This document shows, one piece after another, positions 7,089 to 26,556 of a DNA stretch of 64,000 nt (positions are counted from its first letter, which is position 1; every line of letters begins with the position of its first letter). Source of the stretch: Flavisolibacter longurius (GTDB lineage Bacteria; Bacteroidota; Bacteroidia; Chitinophagales; Chitinophagaceae); contig JABUMY010000007.1 of assembly GCA_013327885.1 (NCBI GenBank), positions 1-64,000 of the forward strand. The letters are read 5' to 3'. A model generated the notes under the pieces. The model made no database searches. It was not told the origin of the DNA and saw only the letters and a list, made by a program, of their open reading frames with translations. Position numbers and translations under genes: made by a program.

Positions 7089-7187
7089 GCAGGAAATACG
7101 GGAAAAAGTAAACGGGTAGGACTACGGGACGATCAATAGGAACCTTGCGTAGGAATACGGTTTATGGGAATACACGTAGAAATACGT
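7089..7187. promoter_or_regulatory. Cluster of CGTAGNAATACG-type repeats, candidate operator
   Basis: CGTAGGAATACG (7148-7159) and CGTAGAAATACG (7175-7186) are near-identical 12-mers with dyad ends CGTA...TACG. Weaker copies are GGTAGGACTACG (7115-7126) and GCAGGAAATACG (7089-7100), plus a partial copy around 7164-7176. Starts are about 26-33 bases apart. The cluster lies between the divergent genes at 7036 (-) and 7389 (+). A closely related 12-mer occurs at 26526-26537. Binding by the NarL-type regulator at 10584-11234 is an inference. Apart from this cluster, 7037-7388 holds nothing recognised. Confidence 0.4.
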
Positions 7188-7388
7188 ATATAAATGCTTT
7201 GAAATATGAAAAGGGGTGATTAGCTTAGAAGAGGATTCCTGCCTTTCGAAAGCTGCGCTGACCCCATTCTCTCACCTTCAAAAACAAAGTGTATGCGCCT
7301 GGAGAAAGCCGCCCTTTTTTCTTCCGGAATCTTCCTGGGAACATTCCTGGCCCGAATGCTTTTCAACGGCAAAATAAGGTTGCGAACA

Positions 7389-7937
7389 ATGGCCCTTCGT
7401 TTTTCTGTTTTGCAGGACCTGCTTCTCGAGAAAGATTTTGAGTCGCTCCTGTTCAATCCTTTTTACGATAACGGTTTTTTGGCAAAAGATGTGGTGACAC
7501 TGGTGGCGTACCAAAAGAAGGCCGGTAAAGCAAAGCCAACGATGCCAGGTGTTTTGCTCGAGGTGGCAGGCAAGGGAAAGCTGTTTGAGAATGACAAAGA
7601 TTTTTCTGCCTATTGCCTGACAAGAGCAGACATCAAAACAGTCCTGGATTGTTTTAAAGACGTACCTGGCTTTACCTACCTCTTGTTTGTACCGGAAGCC
7701 TACCGTGAGAACGAAGCTTATTTTTCGTACCGGCTGGTGCCGGCCGATCACATGCAACATGCCCTTTTTTACAACGTAAGGGCGGCGGTACAAACGCAAA
7801 CCCTCACAGCCTATACAGGGACCGACGAAACAGAAGAGGCGCCGCGGCAGCAATTCTTTTCACTGACATCTTCCAGCTCGCGGGTATTGTACATGGATCC
7901 GTCTCCTCCCGCAACAGCCAGTTTGTGCCTTGTGTAA
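7389..7937 (+). CDS. DPSPPA-tail protein, paralogue 1 (unknown function)
   Basis: First of three adjacent related genes. I start it at the ATG at 7389 (MALRFSVLQ, 182 residues) because the second paralogue also starts MAL; the frame is open to 7293. The shared core is a block with hydrophobic strand, proline and aromatic pairs: TYLLFVPEAYRENEAYFSYR here, DYFLFTPMMQDGTRYVIYEI in paralogue 2, and HFLLVPVASKYNNYISYDI in paralogue 3. The C-terminus reads MDPSPPATASLCLV. There is no signal peptide with this start. It leads a probable six-gene operon with a two-component system; its function is unknown. Confidence 0.65.
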   Translation: MALRFSVLQDLLLEKDFESLLFNPFYDNGFLAKDVVTLVAYQKKAGKAKPTMPGVLLEVAGKGKLFENDKDFSAYCLTRADIKTVLDCFKDVPGFTYLLFVPEAYRENEAYFSYRLVPADHMQHALFYNVRAAVQTQTLTAYTGTDETEEAPRQQFFSLTSSSSRVLYMDPSPPATASLCLV

Positions 7938-8036
7938 CAAAAATCAAGATCTTAAAAAATATAACACGCCACGGCTCATGCCTGGAGTTTTACGAACTAA
8001 AACAACGATCCATTTTTGAACCCTAAATAGCTATCT

Positions 8037-8492
8037 ATGGCTCTCTATTCAAGGTTGTCGCTGACAAAACAGGATTTCGATTTTTTGAAAGATAAACCCA
8101 GTTGCCATACGCTTGTCTTCCAGTTTTGCTATACCTCTGGTAGTGGCAGCAATTCTCCTTTGCTCCGTGCTTATGCCATGAAAATGAACCATAAAAAGAT
8201 CAGCGATGATGCTTTTAAAGATCTAAAGCCGGACCCACTTGCAAGGCCCCCAATTAATCTGCCGGATGCAAGGATCCAGGGCGACCTCCAGGTTACCACC
8301 CGGCAAATGCTTGACATACTGAATGCATCGAACGACCCACCATCTGCTTATGATTATTTTCTTTTTACGCCTATGATGCAAGATGGTACCCGATATGTGA
8401 TCTATGAGATTGAAGTGGTGCCAACCACCAAGCCAGTACTTGTACCACAGCGCATACGGGCAGACCCTTCACCACCCGCAACAGCCAGCTAG
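8037..8492 (+). CDS. DPSPPA-tail protein, paralogue 2 (unknown function)
   Basis: A 151-residue protein, 99 bases after paralogue 1, beginning MALYSRLSLTKQDFDFLK and ending exactly in ADPSPPATAS followed by the stop. The central block VTTRQMLDIL...YDYFLFTP...YEIEVVP aligns by eye with the same block in its two neighbours. No signal peptide, membrane segment or known catalytic motif is visible. Conservation of a Pro-rich tail in three otherwise diverged paralogues suggests the tail is functional, perhaps a recognition tag. That is inference. Confidence 0.7.
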   Translation: MALYSRLSLTKQDFDFLKDKPSCHTLVFQFCYTSGSGSNSPLLRAYAMKMNHKKISDDAFKDLKPDPLARPPINLPDARIQGDLQVTTRQMLDILNASNDPPSAYDYFLFTPMMQDGTRYVIYEIEVVPTTKPVLVPQRIRADPSPPATAS

Positions 8493-8541
8493 TTTTAAAC
8501 CTGTCATTTATAATTCAGAAAGCAACAACCAAAACTTTTGT

Positions 8542-9078
8542 ATGAAAAAGATTGTTTTTTTCGCATCCATCATTTTTACCACCTGTGTAACCGTTGTTGA
8601 CAAGCCCAAAAAAGTACCGGCTGCCACCCGCGTTTATACCATGCGTGTTTCCAAAGAGGTGTTGTTGAATTTGAGTGAGAACCAGTCGTTTTATTGCAGC
8701 GTCAATTATGATGGTATCAAGCTAAAGAAAGATAAAGTTACACTGCTTGGTTACATCTATACAAACGGTGAATCAGAAATGAAAGATGTACAATTGGATA
8801 GTTTAAACCAGTTTACGCGTTTTTCTTTGGACAAGCGGTTTGGCAATTATTTCATAACAAAGAGCATGGTTGCTGAATTTACACAAAAGATACCTGCTGA
8901 GAAGCTTGCGGAACTAACTCACTTTTTGTTGGTTCCGGTTGCTTCTAAGTACAATAACTACATTTCTTACGACATTGAACCGGATAGAATTGTTGTAAGT
9001 GAAGGGCCAGCATCAAGAGTTCTATTACGATTAGATCCAAGTCCACCAGCACGTGCAAACTTCTTTCAAGGCAATTGA
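8542..9078 (+). CDS. DPSPPA-tail protein, paralogue 3, with N-terminal signal
   Basis: A 178-residue protein from the ATG at 8542 (MKKIVFFASIIFTTCVTVV). The frame is open further upstream, but this start gives an N-terminal hydrophobic signal. A Cys at residue 15 could be a weak lipobox, though the preceding FTT is not typical. The body has KVTLLGYIYTNGE, which resembles VVTLVAYQKKAGK of paralogue 1, then HFLLVPVASKYNNYISYDI. The end reads RLDPSPPARANFFQGN. Unlike its relatives it looks exported, which may place one family member outside the inner membrane. Its stop overlaps the TTG start of the next gene. Confidence 0.7.
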   Translation: MKKIVFFASIIFTTCVTVVDKPKKVPAATRVYTMRVSKEVLLNLSENQSFYCSVNYDGIKLKKDKVTLLGYIYTNGESEMKDVQLDSLNQFTRFSLDKRFGNYFITKSMVAEFTQKIPAEKLAELTHFLLVPVASKYNNYISYDIEPDRIVVSEGPASRVLLRLDPSPPARANFFQGN

Positions 9079-9797
9079 TCAAGGGAAACCTAAAAACGCA
9101 TAAAAATTCTCTGTTGCTTAATTTTCAAACCATATTTGACTGGTCCGAAGCATGGGCGCCTTTGGTTCCCCTAACCCTGTCTTTCCGTTTTCGGAAGCAG
9201 CCGGCCTATGTACAACCGGTGCTTATTTACCTATGGATCAGTCTTGTTTTACATTTTGCTGCAGACATTATCTGGAAACGAAAACCGCTGGGGCTGGACC
9301 TGCCGTTTACCAACAACAATCCTTTGTACAACCTGGCATCCATTGCCCGGTTTTTTTTGTTTAGCTGGTTTTTTATTCGCCTGCAACAATCATTTTTTAC
9401 CCGCCTGAAAGTCTTGCTGCCTTGCTTGTTTTTTATTTTTATGGTCGTGGACCTTTTCTTTTTGGAGAATTTTTGGGACACCCGGATCGCCAATGTATTG
9501 CATGCTGCTGAAGCAGGACTGCTCCTGTTTTACTGCCTTTTATATTACCTCTACCTGCTGCGGAGCGATGCTGTCAGGATCGGCAAAATGCCTTCGTTCT
9601 GGATTGTAACCGGGTTGATCATTTTTGTTGCCATCTGTCTCCCGATCTATATTTATTACGATGATTTGCTGAAAAGTTATGTAAAGTTTGCGGTCAATAT
9701 CTGGAGTGTTCCCAAGATTGGTTTTATTATTCTCTGTCTGGCTATTAGTATCGGTCTTTCTATCAACAAAAAATCAAACCTATCGCCTGATGAATGA
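9075..9797 (+). CDS. Multi-pass membrane protein, probable separate sensor partner of the kinase
   Basis: 240 residues with about six or seven hydrophobic segments, for example VLIYLWISLVLHFAADIIW, LYNLASIARFFLFSWFFI and KIGFIILCLAISIGLSI. No ATG exists near the start; the TTG at 9075 overlaps the stop of the previous gene (TTGA), so I take it as start, though another TTG about 13 codons later is possible. The 3' end overlaps the kinase start by 8 bases. No enzyme motif is visible. Because the adjacent kinase has only one membrane anchor and no input domain, this protein may supply the sensing part. That is inferred from context only. Confidence 0.65.
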   Translation: MIKGNLKTHKNSLLLNFQTIFDWSEAWAPLVPLTLSFRFRKQPAYVQPVLIYLWISLVLHFAADIIWKRKPLGLDLPFTNNNPLYNLASIARFFLFSWFFIRLQQSFFTRLKVLLPCLFFIFMVVDLFFLENFWDTRIANVLHAAEAGLLLFYCLLYYLYLLRSDAVRIGKMPSFWIVTGLIIFVAICLPIYIYYDDLLKSYVKFAVNIWSVPKIGFIILCLAISIGLSINKKSNLSPDE

Positions 9798-10587
9798 CAT
9801 CCGCTTCCAGATCATCATTAGTATCGCTATTATCCTGCTTTTGCTTTCAAGCTTCCTGATTGCCTTTGTCACCAACCAAAAAAAGAAACTCCAGCACCAA
9901 AAAGACCTCCAGTTACTTCGTGAGCAACAACAAAATCAATTGATCGAAGCCGCTGTTCGCAGCGAAGAGCTGGAGCGGCACCGCATTGCAGAAACCCTGC
10001 ACGATGAAGTTGGCGCCATTCTTTCCTCCACAAAACTCCACCTGCAAGGCATCAAGCCTGCCAATCTAAACCAACGCGACCTGCAGCTTTATGAACGCAG
10101 CAAGGAATTGCTGGATGAGGGCATTCAAAAGGTTCGCGGGATTTCGCATAACCTGCATTCCAACATCCTGAAAGAGTTTGGACTGAATGAAGCCATTCGG
10201 CATTTTATAAAAAAAGTGGTGCAAAGTGATATGCTAAAAGCAACCTGTGAGATGGATGATGCCTATGAAACCAAAAATCCCGAAAATGATATCAGCATTT
10301 ACCGCATGGTGCAGGAACTTGTGAATAACATTATGAAGCACGCCGGTGCTACCAACCTTCACATTACATCGGTATATGCACCGCATGCGCTTACGATAAA
10401 CCTTTACTACGACGGAAAAGGTTTGTCGCAGCAACAGTTTGAATCCTTTCGCTACAGCAAAAACGGCCTGGGGCTAAAAAACATTCAAAACAGGATTATC
10501 CTGTTAAAAGGAAAAATTTCTTTTCGTGCGACGCCAAATGAGAATACTATTCTTATCACCCTGCCACTTCAAAATGCAGTAGTATGA
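9790..10587 (+). CDS. Histidine kinase of the NarX/HisKA_3 type with one membrane anchor
   Basis: 265 residues from the ATG at 9790, which overlaps the stop of the membrane protein gene. Residues 8-27 form a single transmembrane helix, and a coiled segment (about 31-65) leads into the HisKA_3 domain with ERHRIAETLHDEVG and phospho-acceptor His71. The HATPase domain shows the N box ELVNNIMKHA (176-185), the G1 box YYDGKGL with Asp208, and GLGLKNI (226-232). There is no periplasmic, PAS or GAF sensor domain, so the signal must come through a partner. It autophosphorylates and passes phosphate to the regulator, whose ATG overlaps its stop by 4 bases. Confidence 0.9.
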   Translation: MNDIRFQIIISIAIILLLLSSFLIAFVTNQKKKLQHQKDLQLLREQQQNQLIEAAVRSEELERHRIAETLHDEVGAILSSTKLHLQGIKPANLNQRDLQLYERSKELLDEGIQKVRGISHNLHSNILKEFGLNEAIRHFIKKVVQSDMLKATCEMDDAYETKNPENDISIYRMVQELVNNIMKHAGATNLHITSVYAPHALTINLYYDGKGLSQQQFESFRYSKNGLGLKNIQNRIILLKGKISFRATPNENTILITLPLQNAVV

Positions 10588-11234
10588 GCAAGATAAAAAT
10601 TGCCATTGCCGATGATTACAAAATCTACCGCGATGGGCTAAAGGTCAATCTTACCGCGGATGATAATCTTGCTGTTGTGCTGGAAGCCGATAATGGTGAG
10701 GACTTGCTGAACGGGCTTACGGCCACCCAGCCCGATGTCATTATCATGGACCTGAAAATGCCCATAATGGATGGTATGGAAGCCACCAAAGAAGTGCGGA
10801 AGCGTTTTGGAGCGATGAAGGTTTTGGTGGTGACCATGTACGAGGACGACAAATTTATCATACACATGATGGAGATTGGCGCTAACGGATACCTGTTGAA
10901 AAACGCCGATTCGGGTGAGATCATCAAATCCATTTACTCCGTTCACGAAACGGGTTATTATTTCAATGACCTGGTGAACAAAGCGCTGCTAAAAAAATTA
11001 TTGTTGAAAGGAAACGTAAAGCCCTCTTTTAACCAAAACATTGAGCTTACCGAAAGAGAGCTGGAAGTGCTCAAACTGATTTGCGAAGAAAAGACCGCAG
11101 CCGAGATAGGGAAGGAGTTGTTCATCAGTGTGCGAACGGTGGAAGGGCACCGCACGAAGCTGATCGAAAAAGTAGGTGTCCGCAATACGGCAGGGCTGGT
11201 CATGTTTGCCCTTAAGAATGGAATTGTACAATAA
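10584..11234 (+). CDS. NarL/FixJ-type response regulator
   Basis: 216 residues. The receiver domain (about 1-120) has the acidic pair Asp10-Asp11, phospho-acceptor Asp56 in MDLKMP, the switch Thr in VVTMYEDD and the conserved Lys in YLLKNADS. The C-terminal LuxR-type helix-turn-helix (about 152-212) includes ELTERELEVLKLICEEKTAAEIGKEL in parts and the recognition segment SVRTVEGHRTKLIEKVGV. It is the DNA-binding output of the kinase encoded just upstream and probably controls its own operon. The CGTAGNAATACG repeats at 7089-7187 are the obvious candidate sites. The gene ends 11 bases before the stop of the convergent barrel gene. Confidence 0.93.
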   Translation: MSKIKIAIADDYKIYRDGLKVNLTADDNLAVVLEADNGEDLLNGLTATQPDVIIMDLKMPIMDGMEATKEVRKRFGAMKVLVVTMYEDDKFIIHMMEIGANGYLLKNADSGEIIKSIYSVHETGYYFNDLVNKALLKKLLLKGNVKPSFNQNIELTERELEVLKLICEEKTAAEIGKELFISVRTVEGHRTKLIEKVGVRNTAGLVMFALKNGIVQ

Positions 11235-24735: not shown

Positions 24736-26385
24736 TTATTTTTTCACCAGGCGACCGTTACCCACAACCTGGGTTCCGTTTTGCAATTCAATGATGTAGA
24801 TGCCTGGCTGTAACTGCGCCGCTTCGGTCAGCCGGATGGTGTTGGTTCCGGCAACAATAGTGATTTGCTTTTGCATTACTTGTTGTCCGGCAACAGTCAG
24901 GATACGTACAGTCAGTTGTTCGCTTTTTGTTGCAGTGAACTGAACAGAAGCCATATCCTGCGCAGGGTTGGGGTAAACAGAGAAGCTGGTTGCGGCCACG
25001 GTATTTTGTTTGATGGCTTTGATTTCTGTAAACCGAACATCACCGTCAACAGCACTCTTTCCTTTGATGCGGTAATAGATCACACCCGCTTTGCTTGAAG
25101 CAACAGCATCGGTAAAGGTGTAGTGCTCTGAAGGATTGGCATTGTATGAGGCAACAGATGTAAAGTTGGCTTTGTCAAAGCTTTTTTCAACGATAAATGT
25201 CATACCGGCTTCGTACTGTGCCGACCAGGTAATAACCGGCTTGTCCTGCTTCATTCTTACGTCAAATGACAACCATCTCACAGGGAGAATAATAGCGGAA
25301 GGCATTCTGTAGCTGGCAGCACATCCGGCGTATGAAATATTAAGCGTATCGGGTTTGTCAAATGGACGGTACACCACGTTTGCATTGACAGTACCGTTCT
25401 GTGTATCAAAAATCTGGTTGCTCTTGGTGCGGCTTACATCAAAAACCTGGATCGTATCGGTGGTTGTGCCGGCAATACCGATGGTGCCACTGGTGATGCT
25501 ATTCCCGGAAATATAGTAACCGCCTGCCCCACTGATTGTTCCATAGTTAGTGAACTTTTGTGCTCTTACAACGGCGCCATCTGCGTTGCTGAACTTGGCT
25601 GAGCCATTGTTTACAAATGCATCCGCATCGGTACCGGTTCTGCCTACCCAAAGCAAACCGTTGTTGGTAAAGTTTGCATTGTTGGTGAAACCGGCATTGG
25701 TGATTTGCAGACACTCATTTGTAAAATAGCTTCCGGAAGAGATCTCTAATTTACCCTTTGGCTCAATGGCGCCTTTGTTAGAAACGGTAGCACCTGTCCA
25801 TACATATAGGTTGTTTACAAAAATGCGGTTTTCGTTACGGAGCATACCCCCGTCTATTGACATGTCACCGCTAATGGTAGCAATGCCTTTGTTGGTAAAA
25901 CTTGTGGTGGCGGCATAGAACCTGAAATGGCCGCCAACGGTAAACGTGCCGCTATTGAAAATCTCCGCGTTCTTCATCGTAAAATCGTTGCTGATGGTTG
26001 TGGTAGCCGTGGCCCGGTTTGTCAGGTACTGTTTGCCATCGTACATGCTAAAGCCGCTTTTTACGGTCAGTGTGCCGTAATTGTCCATGCTAAAGCCACT
26101 GTGTGTGCCCAGAAAGCCAAACTCGCAGGTACCATAGTTGATGATGGCCCCGGCGGGAGAATTCAGGCTGGATGGTTTAAAGGAAGCGCCGGCAGAAACA
26201 ATGATAACCGACCCGGTAGGGAAAGAGCCCACCTGGCCCTTAAAGGTTCCGGCAGTGATGCGTAATGTATCACCGTTTGCCAGGTTATAGTTGCGGGTTT
26301 CGCCTTCGTTGGTATAATTGGTGGGTTGCGCGGTTGCAAAAAAGCAGGATAGTAAAAACAACACGAGGGTAGAAGTAGTTTTCAT
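24736..26385 (-). CDS. Type IX-secreted surface protein with C-terminal sorting domain
   Basis: 549 residues from the ATG at 26385 (MKTTSTLVLFLLSCFFATAQ, a signal peptide); the frame opens 13 codons upstream without benefit. The body (about 25-380) is a low-complexity beta-helix-like series of Asn/Gly-rich units such as FTNNANFTNNGLLWVG and AVVSNKG-type turns. A region around 390-460 resembles a fibronectin-like fold. The end is a type A T9SS sorting domain: FSVYPNPAQDMASVQF, then QPGIYIIELQNG and a basic end GRLVKK, which directs export and surface attachment. Its ligand is unknown, perhaps adhesion. The operator-like repeats at 26505-26556 lie upstream. Confidence 0.85.
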   Translation of the reverse strand: MKTTSTLVLFLLSCFFATAQPTNYTNEGETRNYNLANGDTLRITAGTFKGQVGSFPTGSVIIVSAGASFKPSSLNSPAGAIINYGTCEFGFLGTHSGFSMDNYGTLTVKSGFSMYDGKQYLTNRATATTTISNDFTMKNAEIFNSGTFTVGGHFRFYAATTSFTNKGIATISGDMSIDGGMLRNENRIFVNNLYVWTGATVSNKGAIEPKGKLEISSGSYFTNECLQITNAGFTNNANFTNNGLLWVGRTGTDADAFVNNGSAKFSNADGAVVRAQKFTNYGTISGAGGYYISGNSITSGTIGIAGTTTDTIQVFDVSRTKSNQIFDTQNGTVNANVVYRPFDKPDTLNISYAGCAASYRMPSAIILPVRWLSFDVRMKQDKPVITWSAQYEAGMTFIVEKSFDKANFTSVASYNANPSEHYTFTDAVASSKAGVIYYRIKGKSAVDGDVRFTEIKAIKQNTVAATSFSVYPNPAQDMASVQFTATKSEQLTVRILTVAGQQVMQKQITIVAGTNTIRLTEAAQLQPGIYIIELQNGTQVVGNGRLVKK

Positions 26386-26504
26386 GTACGATAGTTTTGT
26401 TCGTGAAATACCGCCTGGCGGCATTAATTGGGTTCGGATTGAAAAAGATAAGTAGAACTGTAGTTTTCACTAAATGATTTCCCTTATCTGGTGCAAACAT
26501 ACCG

Positions 26505-26556
26505 CGTGAATTACGGTTTTGCAATCGTAATTCTACGCAATTTTTGTAAAAATACG
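26505..26556. promoter_or_regulatory. CGTAGNAATACG-type repeats upstream of the T9SS protein gene
   Basis: CGTAATTCTACG (26526-26537) is the reverse complement of CGTAGAATTACG, one base from CGTAGAAATACG at 7175-7186. TGTAAAAATACG (26545-26556) and CGTGAATTACG (26505-26515) are weaker copies. They lie 120-170 bases upstream of the start at 26385. The spacing of about 20 bases equals two helical turns. The rest of 26386-26730 holds no gene. Confidence 0.35.

Follow-up and report, generated by a model that had tools for sequence, protein, structure and literature searches.

Organization of the gene cluster

We analyzed a window of 64,000 nucleotides from Flavisolibacter longurius and found at positions 7116-11234 a module that comprises the genes for three diverged paralogues with a common C-terminal tail, a seven-helix membrane protein (7TM), a HisKA_3 kinase, and a NarL-type response regulator, together with palindromic boxes (Table 1). 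The open reading frames, the DPSPPA tails, and the gene overlaps of 4, 8, and 4 bases reported in an earlier note on this DNA were all recovered from the window sequence; to these we add the residues that lie beyond the tail in tail proteins 1 and 3, and a possible alternative start of tail protein 1 at position 7293, which adds a hydrophobic N-terminus. The earlier note knew of no described system with this make-up, and our searches of Pfam, of NCBIfam (10 proteins), and of the literature, as far as its listings reach, likewise yielded no described counterpart of the signalling circuit. The PADLOC models of anti-phage defence did not match the three tail proteins, the 7TM, or the kinase, and the weak matches of the regulator were confined to its HTH stretch.

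Table 1. Features of the module in the F. longurius window.
Feature	Position	Strand	Remarks
Box 1, GTAGGACTACG	7116..7126	.	GTA-N4-TAC, short of the full palindrome
Box 2, CGTAGGAATACG	7148..7159	.	full CGTA-N4-TACG
Box 3, CGTAGAAATACG	7175..7186	.	full CGTA-N4-TACG
Tail protein 1	7389..7937	+	182 aa; tail DPSPPATAS, then LCLV
Tail protein 2	8037..8495	+	151 aa, leaderless; DPSPPATAS is the C-terminal end
Tail protein 3	8542..9078	+	178 aa; hydrophobic leader, Cys at 15; DPSPPARAN, then FFQGN
Seven-helix membrane protein (7TM), proposed tail receptor	9075..9797	+	below every Pfam cut-off
Sensor histidine kinase	9790..10587	+	HisKA_3 and HATPase_c
NarL-type response regulator	10584..11234	+	receiver and GerE/LuxR HTH

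Kinase and regulator are ordinary HisKA_3/NarL two-component members, with Pfam matches above the curated cut-offs. The kinase begins with one hydrophobic segment (judged by eye), which is followed by its two catalytic domains; Pfam detected neither a further domain nor a sensor domain of its own.

The paralogy of the three tail proteins is weak. Alignments of tail protein 3 with tail proteins 1 (E=2e-7) and 2 (E=4e-5) extend into the tail, and the good alignment between tail proteins 1 and 2 is restricted to it. The tail proteins, of which 32 were scanned, reached no Pfam cut-off. The AlphaFold model of tail protein 2 (pLDDT 85.4) consists of two beta-alpha-beta-beta units and a tail of low confidence, and a Foldseek search with a tail protein found no match (best E 0.13). 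When two of the tail proteins were each searched against 58 relatives, only the window's own copies came back; the family can be detected through profiles or via the 7TM gene. A tail-protein alignment contains 28 of the 39 tail proteins from L114-L158, the window's three, and one further protein (L158). These loci hold 40 tail proteins, the one from L130, which ends in masked letters, being omitted from the alignment; its trailing X letters were removed before its tail was read. Matches to the window in the profile search are no test, since the window proteins are rows of the profile.

Recurrence of the module in Bacteroidota

When the module is defined by a P[SC]PP-tailed protein adjoining genes for a 7TM and a kinase, the window locus belongs to it. 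We reduced 103 places with a 7TM gene to 89 by shared 12-mers and dropped seven with less than 700 bp of upstream DNA, which left 57 close places (profile E<1e-50 and at least 700 bp upstream) and 25 far ones. Both the E 1e-50 border and the CPxxC pattern used with the far set were chosen once the data had been inspected, and one far count accepted at least 300 bp upstream and thus covers 27 places, not 25. A P[SCTAV]PP-tailed protein is encoded at most 1.5 kb upstream, on either strand, of 52 of the 57 assessable close 7TM genes from Bacteroidota (in nine of these 52 places on the opposite strand only), compared with 1/786 other genes of the same loci; since redundancy was removed at near-identity only, related loci inflate these counts. 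The kinase gene follows directly downstream of the 7TM gene in 48/57 close places. The earlier note had named three tests on which its reading could fail; in the two of them applied here, it held, the tail being conserved in homologues and the family being linked to two-component genes in many genera.

The one control gene with such a tail protein in front of it precedes a second, truncated 7TM gene. Other counts speak against the circuit proposed below. The strict tail motif was rare among the distant 7TM loci (3/25). Seven tail-protein loci lack a 7TM gene in the DNA examined, which covers only part of L220, and the fragmented genome G267, with an intact orphan tail, gave no 7TM match at all.

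Conservation of the tail and its sharing within loci

The tails follow the consensus [N/D]-P-[S/C]-P-P-x. Among 68 tails, the position between the prolines is occupied by Ser in 47, by Cys in 17, and by Ala, Thr, or Val in four, and 1 to 17 residues follow the PP. Ala directly after PP was found in 19/31 short-kinase vs 2/16 long-kinase places (Fisher p=0.0018); kinase type was assigned by length, and the L130 kinase, clipped by masked letters, thereby counts as short. A DNA pattern for D-P-[S/T/C/R/W]-P-P-A occurs at five places in the genome from which the window derives; three of them are the tail genes described here, and at the other two no listed open reading frame of at least 80 residues ends in the motif.

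Tail proteins of the same locus resemble each other in their tails. In 14 loci with at least two tail proteins, tail identity was 0.655 within loci vs 0.338 for shuffled partners, and none of 20,000 shuffles reached 0.655. Their domains, too, show a somewhat higher similarity within loci (local score 65.9 vs 43.5 for shuffled partners, p=0.002; global identity 0.261 vs 0.249, p=0.07), so that part of the tail likeness reflects descent. A domain comparison with free end gaps (p=0.11 for domain identity) understated this likeness and was replaced. When same-locus pairs were compared with between-locus pairs matched for domain score, the variable tail positions were shared at 0.652 vs 0.291 (11 loci, p<=5e-5). 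In these sequence comparisons, tail sharing within loci exceeds what domain similarity explains, and the suggestion of the earlier note that the tail is a recognition tag gains support. Proline-rich ends are not rare among proteins generally, and the small proteins might be mere bystanders of an ordinary two-component system, their tail being a composition effect. The linkage counts, the linkage on the opposite strand, and the sharing of tails at matched domain similarity largely contradict such an explanation, which we regard as exceedingly improbable.

Predicted lipoproteins, other proteins whose N-terminus is hydrophobic, and leaderless proteins all bear such tails, and the alternative suggestion of a sorting tag is for this reason not specially supported. 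A related possibility is that the tail serves as a signal for export, anchoring, or processing, with the 7TM as the corresponding enzyme or channel and the kinase as a sensor of processing. This would account for the leaderless members and for the presence of tails on all three N-terminal types, and one of 46 7TM proteins has a weak Acyl_transf_3 match (E=0.0034). We nevertheless consider it quite unlikely, given that 44/68 tail proteins already have leaders, that the 7TM is so regularly paired with a kinase, and that transporters are absent among the 50 Foldseek matches listed for the 7TM.

The seven-helix membrane protein

AlphaFold predicts seven helices for the window 7TM (pLDDT 91.1, pTM 0.87). 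By their titles, 44 of the 50 Foldseek matches listed are GPCRs, with TM-scores of at most 0.58 among the matches listed and 0/509 matches at E<=0.001; the 7TM sequence found no match better than E=0.11 among PDB chains. A Pfam scan of 46 7TM proteins detected no 7TMR-DISM or LytS-type receptor domain, and matches at E<=0.01 were limited to Acyl_transf_3 and DUF5976, in one member each. Conserved polar positions are concentrated in the outer half of the protein, which holds 10/12, 14/16, 15/20, and 18/24 of the top ranks (p=0.018, 0.0014, 0.016, and 0.007, respectively) against a background of 46/89; this test was picked after conservation over all positions had given no significant outward bias (p=0.23). 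The charge distribution supports the topology only modestly: helices 5 and 6 are joined by a loop that is assigned to the inner side and in which acidic residues outnumber basic ones.

A palindrome upstream of the tail genes

The suggestion of the earlier note that the tail proteins might be controlled by the two-component system is backed by a palindrome that is conserved in front of their genes. CGTA-N4-TACG was present in 18/27 NarL-type loci vs 0.6% of 998 control windows; the window, where the box was first sighted, is one of the 18, and without it the count is 17/26. Upstream regions of long-kinase loci (0/7) and distant 7TM loci (1/19) gave few or none. Spacings of 0-11 apart from N4 were near expectation, save N2 (10 vs 3.3 expected).

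A proposed self-regulating circuit and its relation to known systems

These sequence data suggest a circuit in which the tail is read by the 7TM and expression of the tail-protein genes is governed by the regulator, and we consider it somewhat probable that the module regulates itself in this manner. A fast-evolving domain, built of two beta-alpha-beta-beta units, would carry a flexible C-terminal tail, and the binding of something to this domain may cause the tail to be presented, hidden, or freed. We infer that the 7TM contacts and recognizes the tail, most likely through its outward-facing half, and that such contact activates rather than inhibits signalling. The 7TM would provide the sensory part absent from the kinase and relay the signal to it; the kinase would in turn phosphorylate the NarL-type regulator, which would bind to the CGTA-N4-TACG boxes. 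By a simple rule, all adjacent tail proteins are leaderless in 15/53 places, where contact on the outer side would require another export route; these places are unexplained by the proposed model. Among the 15, L146 is clipped by the contig end, and at L140 a lipoprotein member is encoded farther upstream.

The interaction might also have the opposite sign, such that the tail protein keeps the 7TM and the kinase off and releases them once it has been consumed or titrated out. Accessory inhibitors act by such negative feedback in envelope-stress systems, the same sequence evidence is compatible with either sign, and a kinase that by Pfam lacks a sensor domain fits here as well; we rate this alternative as improbable.

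AgrBDCA and FsrABDC likewise combine a precursor, a polytopic membrane protein, a kinase, a regulator, and autoregulation, with Cys/Ser exchange in the signal, and the proposed circuit resembles them in these respects. By analogy with quorum sensing, the tail might be cut off, released as a peptide (perhaps cyclised via Ser/Cys), and read by the 7TM of neighbours, with autoinduction closing the loop. The boxes, the Ser/Cys exchange at one tail position, the locus-specific tails, and the low-confidence, unstructured tail in the AlphaFold model would all fit. Such a mechanism is still unlikely in our view: by eye, no recurring protease or exporter gene was noticed in nine loci with complete gene lists, four tails have neither Ser nor Cys at that position, the number of residues beyond PP varies from 1 to 17, and some tail proteins are leaderless. 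Unlike AgrBDCA and FsrABDC, the module has a conserved tail and a variable remainder, and Pfam found no AgrB-type membrane protease family among 46 7TM or 32 tail proteins.

In LiaFSR of Firmicutes, too, a membrane protein accompanies a HisKA_3 kinase and a regulator of the NarL type, and the window kinase matches the LiaS model, although below its cut-off. The membrane protein of the module, in contrast, reaches no Pfam cut-off, and LiaFSR is not known to include tail proteins. Compared with NarL/FixJ and HisKA_3 systems at large, it is the sensory front end that is unnamed here. In 7TMR-DISM and other bacterial seven-helix families, a membrane receptor feeds a signalling enzyme, but none of these families came up in the Pfam matches of the 46 7TM proteins. 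BtsS of Escherichia coli, a LytS-type 7TM histidine kinase, resembles the proposed circuit in its seven helices, an N-terminus in the periplasm, the periplasmic location of its ligand residues, and output through kinase and regulator (PMC10653868). In BtsS, 7TM and kinase are combined in a single polypeptide, which has pyruvate as its ligand (PMC10653868); here, the 7TM is encoded by a separate gene, matches no Pfam receptor family, and would bind the tail of a co-encoded protein.

More tentatively, and with less than even confidence, we envisage a GPCR-like receptor that is split from its kinase and whose agonist is a conserved tail tethered to a fast-diversifying sensor; with a tail code for each locus, one receptor would read several sensors by way of their common tail and rewrite their expression. 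Such a code would make specificity and crosstalk testable through swaps of a few residues in laboratory strains. If true, the proposed circuit would establish what feeds into an entire class of two-component systems of Bacteroidota, with a protein as the ligand, a separate receptor, a short specificity motif, and an operator, and two unnamed protein families would gain a testable joint function.

The box offers an immediate reporter. We do not infer a wide regulon from the box, since full sites show no genome-wide excess (52 vs 150 for the reversed pattern). Of 48 sites inspected, 27 lie inside open reading frames, and intergenic clusters near a gene start were seen, besides the window operon, only at 26526/26546 and at C44:34654.

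A module of tail proteins, a membrane protein and a kinase-regulator pair

Small proteins with a DPSPPA-type C-terminal tail, a seven-helix membrane protein (7TM) and a kinase-regulator pair form a genuine and recurrent module that has no name in the libraries searched. In the window (contig C50 of a 5.75-Mb genome), the ORF coordinates reproduce the overlaps of 4, 8 and 4 bases that the earlier note had claimed. The three small proteins and the membrane protein gave Pfam matches below the cut-off or none, and no match in NCBIfam. The best-supported explanation, drawn from sequence comparison, is that the 7TM protein would read the tail of the small proteins encoded at the same locus and that the kinase-regulator pair would control expression of the tail genes.

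Features of the window operon and its upstream region
Feature	Position	Strand	Basis
Small tail gene 1	7389-7937	+	ORF
Small tail gene 2	8037-8495	+	ORF
Small tail gene 3	8542-9078	+	ORF
Membrane protein (7TM) gene	9075-9797	+	ORF
Kinase gene	9790-10587	+	HisKA_3, HATPase_c (Pfam, above cut-off)
Regulator gene	10584-11234	+	Receiver, GerE (Pfam, above cut-off)
GTA-N4-TAC sites	7116, 7148, 7175		Sequence match

The tail-protein family

The tail-protein family is real. Pairwise similarity among the three window proteins is slight, and searching 58 relatives with single sequences turned up no match beyond the window genome. A profile of the three gave matches in 14 of 394 genomes of the family (E ≤ 0.1); the weak matches are probably for the most part due to chance, and four beyond the window genome were recognized by eye as family members. 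Three of these have the tails NPSPPRTAE, SSPMPP and DPSPPA, and the fourth, from the same genus, ends in SDPCPPYC, with a homologue of the window's 7TM encoded after it.

AlphaFold predicts a small domain of two beta-alpha-beta-beta units (pLDDT 85.4, pTM 0.76) and a C-terminal end of low confidence without secondary structure; structure and sequence searches of the PDB gave no convincing match for the domain. A simple rule assigns a lipoprotein-like leader to 26 of 68 tail proteins, another hydrophobic start to 18 and none to 24, borderline assignments being doubtful and the window's third protein counting as "none" since its longest-ORF start was taken. Every adjacent tail protein is leaderless in 15 of 53 places, the chief difficulty for the proposed explanation.

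Linkage of the tail to the membrane protein

Homologues of the window's membrane protein occur in 55 of the 394 genomes of the family, and the 7TM profile matched 10 of 296 genomes at phylum level. A second collection of 45 loci with organism names, overlapping in part with the first set, includes records from Niastella, Puia, Mucilaginibacter, Pedobacter, Daejeonella, Segetibacter, Flavihumibacter, Spirosoma, Persicitalea, Terrimonas, Ferruginibacter and Ginsengibacter, among others. Removal of near-identical copies reduced 103 7TM places to 89.

Among close places (profile E < 1e-50) with enough upstream sequence, 52 of 57 have a gene within 1.5 kb whose product carries P[SCTAV]PP among its 30 C-terminal residues, compared to one of 786 other genes of the same loci; this single control positive lies ahead of a second membrane-protein gene, a truncated one. 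The remaining five places are L154, where no tail protein was seen near the 7TM gene; L062, whose upstream protein has a hydrophobic start and lacks the motif; L156, with the variant tail NPCPKC; L140, with the motif further inside the protein; and the second of two membrane genes at L081. The recurring neighbours of the tail genes are the membrane protein and a kinase (48 of 57). Nine of the 52 places have their tail gene solely on the opposite strand, mostly adjoining a kinase of about 350 residues, so shared transcription alone is insufficient to explain the linkage.

The 7TM family is one front end paired with two kinase types. At L133, L137, L141 and L155 it accompanies a kinase of about 350 residues, with no NarL-type regulator directly behind; that of L060 (same locus as L133), the only such kinase scanned, matches AtoS-like models below cut-off.

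At distant 7TM loci the strict motif was found in 3 of 25. A broader pattern defined after viewing them (CPxxC or P[SCTAV]PP within the C-terminal 60 residues of the preceding gene's product) occurs in 15 of 27, versus 0 of 257 control genes. One distant group (L102, L110, L095, L097) has LCPPFC or LCPPYC followed by some 20-30 further residues, which shows that the motif need not be terminal. Two distant sets lie in the window's genome (G000): at L214 (C22, 2639-5021), an 87-aa protein ending in EGCPKPPCTTDEEDDGQP precedes the 7TM, kinase and NarL-type regulator genes; at L213 (C52, 2700-6237), the 7TM gene of a 7TM-kinase-regulator set has no called ORF of at least 80 residues immediately ahead of it.

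Seven tail loci have no 7TM gene within the sequence available around them (L111, L112, L113, L215-L218). Four keep the motif (NPSPPRTAE, DPSPPAPHQ, NPSPPAAPEY, DPSPPALIF); the other three, from one genus, have the tails SSPMPP, SSPQPP and one cut by the contig end. Across the three genomes of this genus, one has no 7TM match and two have only distant ones, which would fit decay of the motif in the absence of its reader. Counter to this reading, the genome with DPSPPAPHQ (680 contigs, 92% complete) has no 7TM match either.

Locus-specific information in the tail

In the 68 tail proteins, the first proline is preceded mostly by N (53 proteins) or D (7); S (47), C (17) or, in four proteins, A, T or V stands between the prolines; and a median of 5 residues follows PP. 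The tail carries locus-specific information. At 14 loci with at least two tail proteins, same-locus agreement over six variable positions was 0.655 versus 0.338 for shuffled partners, and none of 20,000 shuffles reached 0.655; minus two loci closely kin to a third, it was 0.653 versus 0.313 (12 loci, p = 2e-5). Same-locus domains are likewise somewhat more alike (local score 65.9 versus 43.5 shuffled, p = 0.002; global identity 0.261 versus 0.249, p = 0.07), and descent therefore contributes to the likeness of the tails. Against other-locus pairs matched for domain score, possible for 11 of the 12 loci, tail agreement was 0.652 versus 0.291 (p ≤ 5e-5). For the eight pairs whose domains are least similar, the averages were 0.73 versus 0.25. 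The simplest reading of these comparisons is that a common partner at each locus would read the tail. Alanine follows PP at 19 of 31 places with a short kinase and at 2 of 16 with a long one (Fisher p = 0.0018), a difference that may come partly from shared descent.

The seven-helix membrane protein

The AlphaFold model has seven helices (mean pLDDT 91.1, pTM 0.87). Charge distribution favours a predicted topology with the N-terminus out and the C-terminus in: K and R are commoner inside in 42 of 46 sequences, although one loop assigned inside is acidic. Foldseek found no PDB match at E ≤ 0.001. By title, 44 of the 50 matches listed were G-protein-coupled receptors, with TM-scores up to 0.58 among the matches listed; this likeness of the predicted shape does not prove kinship. 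Conservation across all positions showed no outer-side bias (p = 0.23). Conserved polar positions, a test picked after the former, are outer-biased: 10 of the top 12, 14 of 16, 15 of 20 and 18 of 24, versus a background of 46 of 89 (p = 0.018, 0.0014, 0.016 and 0.007).

A palindromic box upstream of the tail genes

Upstream of the first tail gene, 27 NarL-type loci contain 33 GTA-N4-TAC sites versus 2.9 in shuffled sequence (maximum 6 in 100 shuffles); other spacings from 0 to 11 are near expectation, save N2 (10 versus 3.3). The full box, CGTA-N4-TACG, is present in 18 of the 27 regions, or 17 of 26 once the window, in which it was originally noticed, is set aside, versus 0.6% of 998 control windows drawn from these loci. 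Measured from the longest-ORF start (in the window 7293, not 7389), 27 of the 33 sites lie 100-190 bases upstream. Long-kinase loci show no enrichment of GTA-N4-TAC (2 sites versus 1.3 in 16 regions), and none of the seven with a same-strand tail gene has the box; the full box occurs at 1 of 19 distant loci. Control of the tail genes by the regulator would be the natural reading of this distribution.

A full box also lies at 1220 of L216, about 110 bases upstream of the orphan tail gene 578-1111 (DPSPPAPHQ), in 6 kb of sequence containing no 7TM gene; another, at 3483 of L213, lies between the 7TM-kinase-regulator set and a divergent NarL-type regulator gene. The 64-kb window holds three full sites versus 0.26 expected. 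One, at 26526-26537, with an imperfect box 20 bases further (to 26556), lies upstream of the minus-strand gene 24736-26424, which may be a further target of the regulator and encodes a secreted protein whose C-terminus, by eye, resembles a type IX sorting domain.
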